A DNA stretch of 64,000 nucleotides. Origin: Deltaproteobacteria bacterium (GTDB lineage: Bacteria; Desulfobacterota; Desulfuromonadia; Desulfuromonadales; Geopsychrobacteraceae). Under the pieces are notes generated by a model. It was not told where the DNA came from. It did not search any database and saw nothing but the letters and a program-made list of their open reading frames with translations. The DNA is taken from assembly GCA_024280335.1 (NCBI GenBank), contig JAJRQI010000071.1, positions 1-64,000 on the forward strand, read 5' to 3'. Below are positions 3,583 to 43,279 of this stretch, piece by piece (positions within the stretch are counted from its first letter, which is position 1; the number at the start of each line of letters is the position of its first letter). The position numbers and the translations under genes were made by a program.

Positions 3583-6110
3583 GCGAACCGCCGGTTTTGC
3601 GTCAGGCGTTGCGGCTGGTACGGCGTGAACTGCGTGGTGGACTGCGCGGCTTCGGGGTGTTCCTCGGCTGCCTGTTTCTCGGCGTCTTTGCGATTTCCGC
3701 GATCGGCAGCTTCAGTGCCGCCGCGCGCGCCGGGCTGTTGGCCGATGCCAGCGCCCTGCTCGGCGGGGACCTGGAGGTACGCCTGGTGCACCGACCGTTG
3801 AGTCCGGCGCAGCAACTCTATCTGGCCCGCCGCGGGCAGCTTTCGGAAGTTCTCGAACTGCGGACCATGGCCGCCGGCATGGCTGGTGGTCGCCGGCTGT
3901 TGGTCGAACTGAAAGCGGTGGATCAGGCCTATCCGCTCTACGGTCAGCTGTCGATTGCCCCGTCACAGCCGCTGCAATCAGCACTGGCGAAGAGCAACGG
4001 TGAATATGGCGCATTGGTGGAAGAGGCCTTTCTGCAGCGCTTGTCGGCTGCGGTCGGGGATCGAGTTCGGGTCGGCAAAATTATTTTTGTCATTCGCGGG
4101 GTGCTGAAAGTTGAGCCGGATCGAACCATCCGGGCCTTTACTCTGGGACCGCGCTTGCTGGTCAGTCGGGCCGGACTGGATGCCACCGAACTGTTGCAGC
4201 CGGGAAGCCTGGTGGCTTACGCCTACCGGTTGCGACTTGCCGATCGACAACAAGTAGATCAGCTCAAGCAGGATCTGCGGCAGCGGTTTCCCGATGCCGG
4301 TTGGCGATTGCGCAGTTGGCGTGAAGCGGCGCCACGGGTCCGTTTCTTTCTCGACCGGATGAGTACCAATCTGACCCTGCTCGGCCTCTGCGCCCTGCTG
4401 GTCGGCGGCTTGGGGGTGAGCGGTGCGGTGCGCGGCTATCTGGGCGGCAAGGTACTGCATATTGCCACGCTGAAATGTCTGGGGGCCTCAAGTCGGGTGA
4501 TTTTTACCGCGTATCTGCTGCAGATTCTCCTGCTCGGTTTGCTCGGCGCCGCTGCCGGCCTGCTGGCCGGGGTAAGCATCCCGTTTCTGCTCGATCGGTT
4601 GCTTGGCGAACAGCTACCGATTCCACTGCAACCCGGTTTTTATCCGCAGGTGTTGCTGACAGCGACCCTGTTCGGTTTGTTGATCGCGCTGTTGTTTTCG
4701 CTCAAAGAGCTCGGCATTGCCCGGCGGGTGCCGCCGGCAGTGTTGTTTCGCGGTTATCTGGAAACCGGCCGCAAGGATCCGGGATTAAAAATCCGGCTGG
4801 CAATTCTGTTGACCGCCGGGCTGCTGATCCTGGTTGCGCTGCTCAGCAGTGGCGATCGGCGGCTGGCTTTCTGGTTCGTGGTCGGCGCGTTGGTTTGTTT
4901 CCTGATCTTCCGCCTGTTGGCAGTTGTGGTGATCGCTTTTGCCCGTCATTGTCCGCGCCCCGATAATGCTTCGCTGCGACTTGGCCTGGCCAATATTCAG
5001 CGCCCCGGTGCGCCGGCGGGGAGCATCCTTTTCTCGCTCGGGCTGGGCTTGACGGCGCTGGTGATGATTGTGCTGGTGCAGTCCAATCTGAATAGTATGG
5101 TCAGTGAAACCATCCCTGCCGAGGCCCCGGACTATTTCTTTCTCGATATCCAACCGGATCAGGTCGTCCCTTTTGAGCAGCTGCTGAAAGGCGCTGTCGG
5201 GGTCAACCGACTGGAGCGATATCCGACCCTGCGCGGCCGGATTACCGCGATTGCCGGGGTGCCGGTGGCGCAGGCGAAGATCAATCCCAGGGTTCGCTGG
5301 GCAATTCGGGGCGATCGCTTTCTCAGTTACAGCGGGGCGATGCCGCCCGGTACGCAATTGAGCGCCGGGGCCTGGTGGCCGGTCGATTACCGCGGACCGC
5401 CGCTTTTGTCGTTGACCGCCGATATCGCTGCCGGCTTCGGGGTGCAGGTCGGCGACCGGCTGACGGTGAATATCCTCGGTCGCAAGGTCGATGCCGAAAT
5501 TGCCAATCTGCGCACTGTCGATTGGTCGACCCTGGAATTGAACTTCGCCCTGCTGTTCGCCCCCGGTGTTCTGGAGCAGGCACCGCAGACCCATATTGCC
5601 GCCGTGCATCTGGCGCCGGAGGCGGGGGAGAGGGTCTATCGGCGCATTACCGCCGCCTTTCCGAACATTTCGGCAATCTCCACCAGAGAGGTTCTGGCCA
5701 ATGTTTCACGAACCCTGGCGAGGATCGGTGCGGCCTTTCAGGGGATGGCCGGAATTGCCCTGCTGAGCGGTTTTCTGGTGCTGGCCGGCGCGCTGTCCGC
5801 TGACCAGCATCGGCGAATTCATGATGCGGTTATCTGCAAGATCTGCGGCGCGACCCGGCGCGATATCCTGCTCAGCTTCGCCGCCGAATTTACCCTGCTC
5901 GGTTTGGCTGCCGGGGGGATCAGCCTGCTGACCGGCGGGCTGGCTGCTTTCGGGATTCTCAAAGGCTTGATGGAGGCACCGTTTCATTTTTATCCCGGCG
6001 TGGTGCTGGCTACGCTGGCGGCGGGAATCGGTCTGGCTCTGCTGCTTGGGCTGCTCGGCACCTGGAAGGCGTTGGGGCAGAAACCGGCCGGATATCTGCG
6101 GGAAGATTGA
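3579..6110 (+). CDS. FtsX-like ABC permease, YbbP type
   Basis: A large (843-residue) inner-membrane permease with two FtsX-type halves. Predicted membrane stretches occur near the N-terminus (FGVFLGCLFLGVFAISAIG), at about residues 265-385 (LTLLGLCALLVGGLGVSG and following), at 425-475 and 485-505, and at the C-terminus (around MAGIALLSGFLVLAGALS and the final VLATLAAGIGLALLLGLLGTW). The loops between them are large and periplasmic. Size and order match YbbP. It starts at the ATGA that closes the ATPase gene. The substrate is unknown; pairing with TesA suggests lipid or esterified-substrate handling, which is inference. Confidence 0.88.
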   Translation: MSEPPVLRQALRLVRRELRGGLRGFGVFLGCLFLGVFAISAIGSFSAAARAGLLADASALLGGDLEVRLVHRPLSPAQQLYLARRGQLSEVLELRTMAAGMAGGRRLLVELKAVDQAYPLYGQLSIAPSQPLQSALAKSNGEYGALVEEAFLQRLSAAVGDRVRVGKIIFVIRGVLKVEPDRTIRAFTLGPRLLVSRAGLDATELLQPGSLVAYAYRLRLADRQQVDQLKQDLRQRFPDAGWRLRSWREAAPRVRFFLDRMSTNLTLLGLCALLVGGLGVSGAVRGYLGGKVLHIATLKCLGASSRVIFTAYLLQILLLGLLGAAAGLLAGVSIPFLLDRLLGEQLPIPLQPGFYPQVLLTATLFGLLIALLFSLKELGIARRVPPAVLFRGYLETGRKDPGLKIRLAILLTAGLLILVALLSSGDRRLAFWFVVGALVCFLIFRLLAVVVIAFARHCPRPDNASLRLGLANIQRPGAPAGSILFSLGLGLTALVMIVLVQSNLNSMVSETIPAEAPDYFFLDIQPDQVVPFEQLLKGAVGVNRLERYPTLRGRITAIAGVPVAQAKINPRVRWAIRGDRFLSYSGAMPPGTQLSAGAWWPVDYRGPPLLSLTADIAAGFGVQVGDRLTVNILGRKVDAEIANLRTVDWSTLELNFALLFAPGVLEQAPQTHIAAVHLAPEAGERVYRRITAAFPNISAISTREVLANVSRTLARIGAAFQGMAGIALLSGFLVLAGALSADQHRRIHDAVICKICGATRRDILLSFAAEFTLLGLAAGGISLLTGGLAAFGILKGLMEAPFHFYPGVVLATLAAGIGLALLLGLLGTWKALGQKPAGYLRED

Positions 6111-6120
6111 AGATAAGGTT

Positions 6121-6300
6121 CAGTGAATGGCCTCGCGCTGCCCACAGTGAAGGGCCGCATGAACCCATCCCTGGGGATTGACTGACGCCATCCTGGCGCC
6201 AGACACCCTTCTCTGTGAGCACCCCGAGGCCACCGAGCTGAATAGTTACGAAAGAAGTAACGCAGGGCAGAACGGCAACCCCTTTCAGTTTTGACATTTT
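6121..6300. repeat. Intergenic element, possibly a dispersed repeat with a small minus-strand frame
   Basis: The 190 bases between the permease and the next gene look unlike ordinary spacer. On the minus strand a 95-residue frame starts at 6297 (MSKLKGVAVLPCVTSFVTIQ) and runs into the antisense of the permease end. Its first 60 residues (with LGGLGVLTEKGVWRQDGV) resemble frames that I associate with repeated intergenic elements. GTTAC and GTAAC around 6245-6260 form a short hairpin. I cannot show that it is translated or repeated. Confidence 0.25.
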
Positions 6301-40290: not shown

Positions 40291-40351
40291 GCCGGTTTGC
40301 TCTCGGTGTTGCTGTCTTGCCAGTCTGGGACAGCGCATGTATAGTCGCGGC

Positions 40352-41278
40352 ATGGATGCACTGGTGATCAAAAATCTGTACAAATCGTTTGCTGGAACCG
40401 TTGTTGTCAAGGGGGTCGATTTCACCATCAAGCAGGGTGAAATTCTCGGTCTGCTCGGTCCGAACGGCGCGGGGAAAAGTACCATTATCAATATGATCGT
40501 CGGGGTTGCCCGGATCGATTCCGGAAGCATCACTGCGTTCGGTTACGACAATCAGCGGGATTACCGCAAAACCCGACAGATGCTCGGGGTGGTACATCAG
40601 GAGGTTGTTATCGACAACTTCTTTACCATCGATCAGGCGCTTAAACTGCACGCCGGCTATTACGGGGTCAAGGATGATCCGGTCTGGCGGCAGTTGCTGA
40701 TCGACAAACTCGGCCTGCGGCCGCATCTGGACAAGGTGATGCTGAAGCTCTCCGGCGGCATGAAGCGCCGCTTTATGATTGCCAAGGCGCTGATCCACCG
40801 GCCGCAACTGCTGATTCTGGATGAGCCGACCGCCGGGGTCGATGTCGAGCTGCGCCACGGTCTCTGGGAGTTTGTCCGTGAGATCAACCGCGAGGGGACG
40901 ACCATCCTGTTGACCACGCACTATTTAGAAGAGGCGGAGGAGATGTGCGACCGGATCGCCATCATGCATCATGGTCAGCTGATCGCCATGGAAGCGACCC
41001 ATGAGCTGGTGCGCCGCTTGTCGAACCGGCAACTGCGCCTCTGGTTGGAGCTGCCGTTGCAAGAAATGCCGGTCGGCTTGGAGGCGTATCGGCCGAAGCT
41101 CAAGGAGGATGGCCGCCAACTGCTGCTCAATCTGCCGGCCGGGGAGAGCGCCGGGATCTTGCTGGGACGGATCTGCGAACTGGGCTTGAAGGTCCGTGAC
41201 ATTGAAACCGACCAGAGCGGTCTTGAGGAGGTCTTTATCCAGCTGACCGGCCTGCAGGGGGCTGCGCATGGCCGCTAA
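40352..41278 (+). CDS. ABC-2 type exporter ATP-binding protein
   Basis: A 308-residue ATPase of the YadG/NodI/DrrA group. It has Walker A GPNGAGKST, Q-loop VVHQEVVID, signature LSGGMKRRFMIAKA, Walker B LLILDEPTAGVD and switch His LTTHYLEEAEEMCDR. The C-terminal 90 residues form the extra domain usual in exporters of this group. The start at 40352 (MDALVIKNLYKSF) is chosen over an ATG 15 bases upstream. It overlaps the permease gene by 11 bases. Confidence 0.92.
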   Translation: MDALVIKNLYKSFAGTVVVKGVDFTIKQGEILGLLGPNGAGKSTIINMIVGVARIDSGSITAFGYDNQRDYRKTRQMLGVVHQEVVIDNFFTIDQALKLHAGYYGVKDDPVWRQLLIDKLGLRPHLDKVMLKLSGGMKRRFMIAKALIHRPQLLILDEPTAGVDVELRHGLWEFVREINREGTTILLTTHYLEEAEEMCDRIAIMHHGQLIAMEATHELVRRLSNRQLRLWLELPLQEMPVGLEAYRPKLKEDGRQLLLNLPAGESAGILLGRICELGLKVRDIETDQSGLEEVFIQLTGLQGAAHGR

Positions 41279-42056
41279 ATCCTCACGTCAGTTCAATCCC
41301 TGGCTGCCGTTTGTCACCCTGCTGCGCAAGGAAATTCTGCGTTTCTGGCGGGTCTCCTCGCAGACCTTGCTGACGCCGATCATCACTGCTTCGCTCTATC
41401 TGTTTGTCTTCGGCGCTACCCTCGGCGAGCGACTCAACGTAATCGAAGCTTTCAGTTATGCCCAGTTTGTAATCCCCGGGCTGATCCTGATGGGAGTGAT
41501 CAACAACTCCTTTGCCAATACCTCTTCATCGCTGTTCATGTCGCGCTATCTCGGCGGGATCGTCGATCTGCTGGTGACGCCGGTCAGCCCGCCGCAGTTT
41601 ATTCTTGCCTATACCTTGGCGGCGATGCTGCGCGGCCTGCTGGTCGGCACGGTGGTCGGGTTGATTTCGACTCTGTTCGCCGAGCTGCCTTGGGAGGCCC
41701 CGCTGCTGGCAATCCTGATGGCGATGCTGGCCAGTTTTTTGTTTGCCCAGTTCGGTTTGATTGCGTCGATTTTTGCTCATAATTTCGATACCTTATCGAT
41801 GTACAGTAACTTTCTGATCCTGCCGCTGATCTATCTCGGCGGGGTTTTCTATCCGATTTCGATCCTGCCCGATCCCTGGCGAGGATTATCCTATCTGAAC
41901 CCGCTTTTTTATCTGATCGACGGTTTTCGCCATGCACTGCTCGGGGTCGGCGATACCAGCTACCTGATGGCCTTCGGCGTCAGTGGCGCGATCGCCTTGG
42001 CGCTGTTCTGCTGGGCTGCCTGGTTGATCGGCAAGGGCTATCGGTTACGGATTTAA
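41268..42056 (+). CDS. ABC-2 type exporter permease (YadH-like)
   Basis: A 262-residue membrane protein with six hydrophobic helices and the ABC-2 signature region ILPLIYLGGVFYPISILPDPWRGLSYLNPLFYLIDGFRHALLG. With the preceding ATPase it forms a two-component exporter; substrates in the family range from polysaccharides to drugs. A 48-bp gap with a GGGAGG site leads to the selenoprotein gene. Confidence 0.92.
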   Translation: MAAKSSRQFNPWLPFVTLLRKEILRFWRVSSQTLLTPIITASLYLFVFGATLGERLNVIEAFSYAQFVIPGLILMGVINNSFANTSSSLFMSRYLGGIVDLLVTPVSPPQFILAYTLAAMLRGLLVGTVVGLISTLFAELPWEAPLLAILMAMLASFLFAQFGLIASIFAHNFDTLSMYSNFLILPLIYLGGVFYPISILPDPWRGLSYLNPLFYLIDGFRHALLGVGDTSYLMAFGVSGAIALALFCWAAWLIGKGYRLRI

Positions 42057-42104
42057 CCCAGCAACAGGCGGATTTTCCTGCTCCAGCCAAAAGGGAGGTT
42101 GATC

Positions 42105-42395
42105 ATGTTGTCAGCAAAAAACGGCAAGGCATTCAGCGGTTTTTATGATGCGGTCCGGGACGAATCGCTTCTCGATCGAAAAACCACCATTTTGATCGGC
42201 CTGGCGGCCGCGCTGACCTCCGGTTGTGCGCCTTGACTGGAACATTACCTTGGCGTCGCCAGGGTCGAAGGGATCAGTGATGAAGAGATCGGTGCCGTGC
42301 AGGGTTTATGTATGGCGGTCTCTGCCGGGCGGGTCAACGCCCAATTGAAAGATGTGGAAAAGAAATTGCGTAAAGAACGGGACGAAAAGGCTTAG
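42105..42395 (+). CDS. AhpD-like (carboxymuconolactone decarboxylase family) selenoprotein, in-frame UGA read as Sec
   Basis: A 96-residue protein is obtained if the TGA at 42234-42236 is read as selenocysteine. The sequence around it is LTSGCAP-U-LEHYLGVARVEG: Cys41, Sec44 and His47 occupy the place of the CxxC...H redox site of AhpD-type proteins. The part after UGA continues in frame for 52 codons and keeps the family pattern ISDEEIGAVQGLCMAVSAGRV. GGGAGG lies six bases before the ATG. A hairpin suited to a SECIS begins 10 bases after the UGA. A normal gene caller would split or miss it. hslO begins two bases after the stop. The likely role is a small thiol/selenol oxidoreductase or peroxidase partner; the substrate is unknown. 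Confidence 0.88.
42247..42265 (+). promoter_or_regulatory. Candidate bacterial SECIS hairpin
   Basis: ACCTTGGC (42247-42254) pairs with GCCAGGGT (42258-42265), including one G-U pair, around the loop GTC. The loop starts 19 bases after the UGA and its first base is G. Both fit the loose rules for bacterial SECIS elements (a stem-loop shortly after UGA with a G early in the apical loop), which bring SelB to the ribosome. Folding and SelB binding are untested. Confidence 0.6.
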
Positions 42396-42397
42396 AG

Positions 42398-43279
42398 ATG
42401 GGATTGAAGATGCAGGATCATTTGGTTCGGGTGGTCAGCCCGGATGGTTTGCTGCGCGGTGTCGCAGCGGTGACTACCGGACTGGTCAAGGATATTTGTC
42501 AAAAACAGCAGACCGATCTGACCGCTACGGTTGCTCTCGGCCGCCTGTTGACCGGTGGCGCTTTAATGGGTTGCCTGCTCAAAGGGCCGCAGCGTTTGGC
42601 ACTGATGGTTGAGGGGAACGGCCCGCTCGGCAAGTTGAGCGTCGAAACGGATGCCGCCGGGCGGGTACGGGGTTCGATCCGCAATCCGTTGGCCGGGTTG
42701 CCACCGAAAGAAGATCGCTTCGATGTCGCCGGGGCGATCGGTAAGGCGGGATTTCTACACGTCTGGAAGGATCTCGGCCTGAAGGCACCCTATCAGAGTA
42801 TGGTGCAGCTGCAGAGCAGTGAAATCGCCGAAGACCTGGCCTGGTATCTGACCAGCTCTGAGCAGATCCCCTCAAGTGTTGCCCTGGGTGTTGAGCTCGA
42901 CAGCGAGGGGCAGGTCGCTGCCGCCGGCGGCTTGCTGGTGCAGTCGCTGCCGCCGGGGGATGAGCAGCGGGTCGACTTGCTGGTAGAGCGTCTGCAGCAG
43001 TTGCCGCCGATCACCAGCTTGCTGCGTCAGGGACTGACACCGGCAGAGATTCTCGGCCGACTGTTCGGCGAGCTGGATTTTCGCGTGCAGGCTGAGGTTC
43101 CGCTGTACTTTCACTGTCCCTGCAACCAGCAGCAGATCGAACGGATGCTGGTCAGCCTGGGGGATGACGAACTGCAGGCGCTTGCCGCTGAACAGCAACC
43201 GGTAGAGGTGACCTGCGAATACTGCCGCAAGAGTTATCACTTTGCGCGGGAAGAGTTGTTGGTGCTTATGGGTAGCTAG
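42398..43279 (+). CDS. hslO: Redox-regulated chaperone Hsp33
   Basis: A 293-residue chaperone. The N-terminal core (MQDHLVRVVSPDGLLRG, ALGRLLTGGALMGCLLKG, GPLGKLSVETDAAGRVRG) is followed by a linker and the C-terminal zinc redox switch with CPC (FHCPCNQQQIERML) and CEYC (VTCEYCRKSYHF). When oxidised these cysteines form disulfides, release zinc and activate holdase function. It starts two bases after the selenoprotein stop, so a thiol-based stress protein and a redox selenoprotein share an operon. Confidence 0.95.
   Translation: MGLKMQDHLVRVVSPDGLLRGVAAVTTGLVKDICQKQQTDLTATVALGRLLTGGALMGCLLKGPQRLALMVEGNGPLGKLSVETDAAGRVRGSIRNPLAGLPPKEDRFDVAGAIGKAGFLHVWKDLGLKAPYQSMVQLQSSEIAEDLAWYLTSSEQIPSSVALGVELDSEGQVAAAGGLLVQSLPPGDEQRVDLLVERLQQLPPITSLLRQGLTPAEILGRLFGELDFRVQAEVPLYFHCPCNQQQIERMLVSLGDDELQALAAEQQPVEVTCEYCRKSYHFAREELLVLMGS

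Follow-up and report, generated by a model that had tools for sequence, protein, structure and literature searches.

A predicted CMD/AhpD-like selenoprotein encoded next to hslO in a deltaproteobacterium of the Geopsychrobacteraceae

Relation to described CMD/AhpD-like proteins

CMD/AhpD-like selenoproteins with a CxxU motif have been known since 2005. They were reported from the Sargasso Sea (PMC1088965) and GOS (PMC2398784) metagenomes, and CMD domain-containing/AhpD-like 2 selenoproteins are listed in a 2026 review (PMC13188914). The gene described here lies in a stretch of 64,000 nucleotides (hereafter the window) from a deltaproteobacterium of the family Geopsychrobacteraceae. By published description, the Sargasso Sea and GOS proteins resemble the window protein in the presence of pfam02627 and CxxU; unlike the window gene, they originate from marine metagenomes. 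As proteins of this kind have been published from both sources, the window protein belongs, with good support, to a known protein kind and does not represent a new one.

No NCBIfam model covers the subfamily of this protein at its cut-off. Sub-threshold matches were obtained with MduS, ArsM_AhpD_UU, the GSU3128 family and an arsenosugar-associated peroxidase-like family. The closest curated sequence relatives are the AhpD domains of MduS (NF045649) and ArsM_AhpD_UU (NF041537), which have CxxU in common with the window protein, but the window domain stands alone, without a methyltransferase part and without a second Sec. Only the C-terminal domain of these two models is matched, and since a single domain is shared the scores (52.2 bits versus 380 for MduS, 47.8 versus 510 for ArsM_AhpD_UU) are far under the full-length cut-offs. 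The GSU3128 family (seleno)protein (NF041047), a 'distant AhpD homolog' of Geobacter, is also a small AhpD-like protein with CxxU from Desulfuromonadales relatives; the window protein reaches 28.3 bits with this model, against a cut-off of 110, and thus falls outside that family. AhpD of M. tuberculosis shares the fold and the two-residue redox motif at 14–15% identity, but differs in that the window protein has Sec for the second Cys, a His shifted by one residue and no relay Glu. RclX (7y4r), an AhpD-like protein of Pseudomonas aeruginosa, is similar in size and fold, but is a Cys-Cys enzyme with Glu and the canonical His, and without selenium.

Reading frame, UGA codon and recoding hairpin

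The following features were identified in the gene and directly upstream of it:

42093..42098, plus strand: ribosome binding site GGGAGG, 6 nt upstream of the ATG, read directly
42105..42395, plus strand: predicted AhpD/CMD-like selenoprotein gene, 96 codons plus TAG, with a Pfam CMD match spanning the UGA and 64 UGA homologs
42234..42236, plus strand: in-frame UGA, predicted Sec44 of the C41-A-P-U44 motif; UGA in 64/71 homologs, Cys in 5/71
42248..42264, plus strand: SECIS-like hairpin CCUUGGC-GUC-GCCAGGG of 7 bp within the coding sequence, with frozen third positions and compensatory pairs, lost with Cys

Direct reading places the start at ATG 42105 and the stop at TAG 42393–42395. The sole internal stop is the TGA at codon 44, beyond which 52 sense codons follow, with no frameshift after the UGA in the window copy. 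This bears out a preliminary description of the locus, which had claimed a 96-codon frame broken solely by this TGA, a ribosome site ahead of it, Cys41 and His47 at three residues before and after the UGA, and a coding signal and family pattern continuing past it. The product matches PF02627 (CMD) over residues 7–72 (42.6 bits, gathering cut-off 23) when the UGA is translated as an amino acid, so that the family pattern crosses the UGA. Comparison with nine relatives (67–80% identity) gives a pN far lower than pS on either side of the UGA, the unsaturated dN/dS values being about 0.06–0.15 before and 0.16–0.22 after it. Ordinary annotation would miss or split such a gene.

A first homolog search in 98 genomes, consisting of the window's own and related ones, gave 30 strong near-full-length matches (the window's own included), and 29 of these carry TGA at the corresponding codon. 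From named genomes, 61 loci were obtained, including one in Malonomonas rubra DSM 5091, and further loci came from a phylum-wide search. The hosts include Desulfuromonadales, Desulfobacterales, Candidatus Zixiibacteriota, Fidelibacterota (Neomarinimicrobiota) and Acidobacteriota (Terriglobia). Among 71 distinct motif-bearing sequences, the codon at the Sec position is UGA in 64, TGC (Cys) in five, TTA in one and CGA in one. Cys had been sought at the equivalent of codon 44 in relatives, and the five distinct Cys homologs occupy at least two places in a 69-row tree (90 columns) in which few forks are resolved. Sense codons other than Cys, which the preliminary description had named as a sign against Sec, are thus confined to the lone TTA (Leu, L099 1597–1599) and the lone CGA (Arg, L147 5016–5018). 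Each occurs on a single MAG contig with an intact hairpin, and would represent either a recent loss or a sequencing error.

The bacterial SECIS element is an RNA hairpin that is bound by SelB. A stem-loop at SECIS distance, with G opening its loop, had been proposed for the window gene, and this is confirmed by covariation and by frozen third codon positions. The hairpin starts 11 nt past the UGA; its arms (42248–42254 and 42258–42264) enclose the loop GUC, with G first, and 18 nt separate the UGA from the loop. Third positions of the stem codons 48, 49, 50, 52 and 53 carry 1.53–2.00 bits, compared to less than 1 for most other third positions of the gene, and codon 51, whose third base falls in the loop, varies freely at that base. 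In 28 distinct sequences the stem cells are paired in 99.5% of cases, with double changes in three of the seven pairs, and sliding the partner by 1–3 columns lowers the pairing to 24–59%. The covariation score is 0.212 versus 0.166 in shuffles, and none of 500 shuffles scored as high. Pairing amounts to 98.9% over the 64 UGA genes, in which CG/UA, UA/CG and GC/AU double changes are present. The GC to AU change occurs in seven genes, and in the cases read it replaces Gly by Ser in one arm and is synonymous in the other. In contrast, the Cys forms (five distinct sequences) retain only 2–4 of the seven pairs. As judged from these sequences, the pattern fits the needs of a SECIS element, and protein constraint alone would not produce it. 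The frozen hairpin clearly illustrates, in a natural setting, how RNA structure constrains a protein sequence, a constraint that is released where Cys replaces Sec.

The single-strand fold of the hairpin region in the window has z = -2.0. An Rfam search of 42000–42500 gave no match to a SECIS family, the sole hit being a sub-threshold snoRNA match. Folding the window sequence by itself gives an extended lower stem, but this is absent from the consensus fold, and the hairpin is therefore restricted here to 7 bp.

The genome of the window (3.59 Mb in 72 contigs, 99.5% complete) was searched for the Sec pathway, and all of its components were found: a tRNA-Sec with anticodon UCA (contig C50), and SelA, SelB and SelD scoring above their curated cut-offs (selA/selB on C69, selD on C55). 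A tRNA-Sec was matched in 33 of the 38 genomes with UGA forms, the remaining five being draft assemblies. Nearly all relatives have tRNA-Sec whether or not they have the selenoprotein gene, and hence co-occurrence of the two is uninformative. The SelD sequence of this genome (L048, G000:C55:36959-37888) itself has an in-frame TGA, so that SelD is probably a selenoprotein too.

An in-frame UGA could also mark a pseudogene that a nonsense mutation has split, and truly decayed copies are indeed known from three species of the same genus (L136 3289–3539, L150 338–569, L083 about 5913–6190). The first two of these (in G009 and G002, respectively) lie at the same site, before hslO, and share a deletion of 10 nt ahead of the UGA site, indicating a recent loss of the selenoprotein in part of the genus; the third (in G003) contains several frameshifts and stops. 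All of these lesions are absent from the window copy. Several genomes of the same genus or family lack the gene or have a decayed copy, so that it is dispensable. For the window copy, the recurrence of this UGA in 64 distinct genes, the purifying selection downstream of it, the compensatory changes in the hairpin and the Sec machinery of the genome all speak against decay. Since the UGA is conserved and the decayed sister copies look different, we reject the pseudogene explanation, which is left with a very small probability. No more credible is that the UGA is read as another amino acid, by near-cognate suppression or another genetic code: the frame would be open whatever the residue at the UGA, but the Cys homologs point to Sec, the hairpin is tied to the UGA and lost with Cys, and the genome has a tRNA-Sec with a UCA anticodon.

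Conservation in 64 distinct genes and low dN/dS upstream and downstream of the UGA put the frame, the UGA and the hairpin beyond chance. As more than 60 related genes retain both the UGA and the recoding hairpin, the segment 42105–42395 almost certainly encodes a real selenium-containing protein. The claim of a true selenoprotein rather than a broken gene is upheld by the conserved UGA, the compensatory hairpin changes, the Sec pathway and the intact frame, and a genuine selenoprotein of CMD/AhpD-like fold is very probably the best explanation overall.

Predicted fold and active site

The AlphaFold2 model, built with 44 homologs, has a mean pLDDT of 93.2 and consists of four helices, in agreement with the all-helical CMD fold. 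The best PDB matches to the model are all CMD/AhpD proteins: 3bey (Z 11.7, rmsd 1.6 over 86 residues), RclX 7y4r (Z 10.5, rmsd 2.5 Å over 91 residues), 2cwq (Z 10.3, rmsd 2.8 over 88 residues) and M. tuberculosis AhpD 1knc (Z 7.0, rmsd 2.6 over 81 residues). Two redox residues are present in the motif C41-A-P-U44, and neither C41 nor position 44 varies among the 44 rows of the alignment.

The surroundings of this motif differ from those in AhpD, for which a proton relay consisting of a Glu and a His is known from M. tuberculosis. The residue at U+3 is His in 50 and Tyr in 11 of the 64 UGA forms, and Tyr in four of the five Cys forms. In profile alignments the canonical His of RclX and 3bey falls on U+4 (position 48), where 63 of the 64 UGA forms have Tyr instead of the AhpD His. 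The relay Glu, located 12 residues before the first Cys in AhpD, would correspond to position 29, which aligns with the Glu of RclX; this position is Leu, Ile, Ala, Val, Thr or another residue, and never Glu, among the homologs. The preliminary description had placed Sec exactly in a CxxU...H site of the AhpD type. Its C41-x-x-U44 part stands, but the correspondence is looser than claimed, since the His is at U+3 and not U+4, is variable, and the Glu is missing. Alkylhydroperoxidase activity is not to be assumed, as the Glu/His proton relay of AhpD is not conserved.

Gene neighbourhood and possible function

The gene is flanked by the following genes:

40337..41278, plus strand: ABC transporter ATPase, upstream (PF00005; synteny)
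41268..42056, plus strand: ABC-2 type permease, ending 48 bp before the selenoprotein gene (PF01061; synteny)
42398..43279, plus strand: hslO, encoding the redox-regulated chaperone Hsp33, directly downstream (PF01430, 294.5 bits; NF001033 over its cut-off; synteny)

The first ATG of hslO is at 42398, and comparison with relatives makes the ATG at 42410 the likelier start. In the family of the window organism the order ABC-ATPase, ABC permease, selenoprotein gene, hslO, nuoA is kept. In a literature search on Hsp33 in combination with selenoproteins nothing relevant was found.

The protein is likely to have thiol/selenol oxidoreductase activity. Located where the third helix begins, Cys41 and Sec44 would form a selenol/thiol redox pair cycling via a Se-S bond, and electrons would flow from a thioredoxin- or thiol-type donor through this pair to an oxidised substrate, for which a disulfide, a sulfenic acid, a peroxide or a metal(loid)-thiol adduct are candidates. 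The most economical reading is that a general selenol/thiol oxidoreductase has been put to use in several redox settings. Beside hslO, its likeliest job would be thiol repair or detoxification when an anaerobe comes under oxidant stress. P. aeruginosa depends on the structurally similar RclX for protection from HOCl and HOSCN (PMC7950407), and a role in thiol oxidation stress is favoured here on account of this similarity and of the Hsp33 neighbour. The fold shared with RclX shows no function by itself, and we infer a specific role in oxidant stress only tentatively.

Other neighbourhoods would point to a possible connection with metal(loid)s. In five loci (L100, L102, L107, L109 and L111) from Geobacter, Geotalea and Oryzomonas relatives, hgcA-hgcB occupy the stretch from about 1550 to 50 bases before the family gene, which directly follows them and is a Cys form in four cases and a Sec form in one; the encoded HgcA scores 451 bits (cut-off 275), and HgcB 126.6 and 133.7 bits (cut-off 99). 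Arsenic genes were also identified near relatives, encoding ArsM (L131), ArsC (L126), ArsM-like methyltransferases (L128, L138) and Acr3/ArsR (L100, L107, L109). No paper pairing hgcAB with carboxymuconolactone was found in a literature search. The genome of the window encodes HgcA (L154, G000:C72:51583-52560; 452.9 bits versus a cut-off of 275), by which the organism is a predicted mercury methylator. The protein might accordingly be a selenoprotein for metal(loid) or organometal chemistry, acting as a redox helper where Hg, As or similar elements are methylated or handled, as the nearest curated models, the MduS and ArsM_AhpD_UU methyltransferase fusions, would also suggest. We consider this rather unlikely, since in the window's family the gene has the ABC transporter and hslO beside it and no metal genes, hgcA lies on a separate contig in the window's genome, and the fusion-model scores are as low as described above.

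Service to selenium or Sec metabolism, for example in the handling of selenide/selenol intermediates or in sensing of Sec supply, is more doubtful still. A second Desulfuromonadales clade has the selenoprotein gene immediately 5' of selA-selB-selD, and in two loci a tRNA-Sec is found immediately upstream of the family gene (L067 6546–6641, L133 4877–4972), that of L133 having the selenoprotein gene between selC and selA, with selA-selB-selD after it. However, the neighbours differ in other clades, the window copy is away from the sel genes of its genome, and sister species with decayed copies can retain tRNA-Sec (G002, G003).

A stand-alone selenol redox partner common to the HgcAB, ArsM-type and Sec biosynthesis systems, acting on metal-thiol/selenol intermediates and not on peroxides, and coupled to Hsp33 in the window's family, is also conceivable, albeit unlikely. 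With hslO, selA-selB-selD or hgcA-hgcB adjoining the gene, a part for the protein as redox partner in defence against oxidants, in selenium metabolism or in the methylation of mercury can be put to the test.

Finally, frames of 345–347 aa, each with one TGA and with a part resembling the window protein, were found in three genomes of the same order (G067, G072 and G075), and look like methyltransferase-AhpD fusion selenoproteins.
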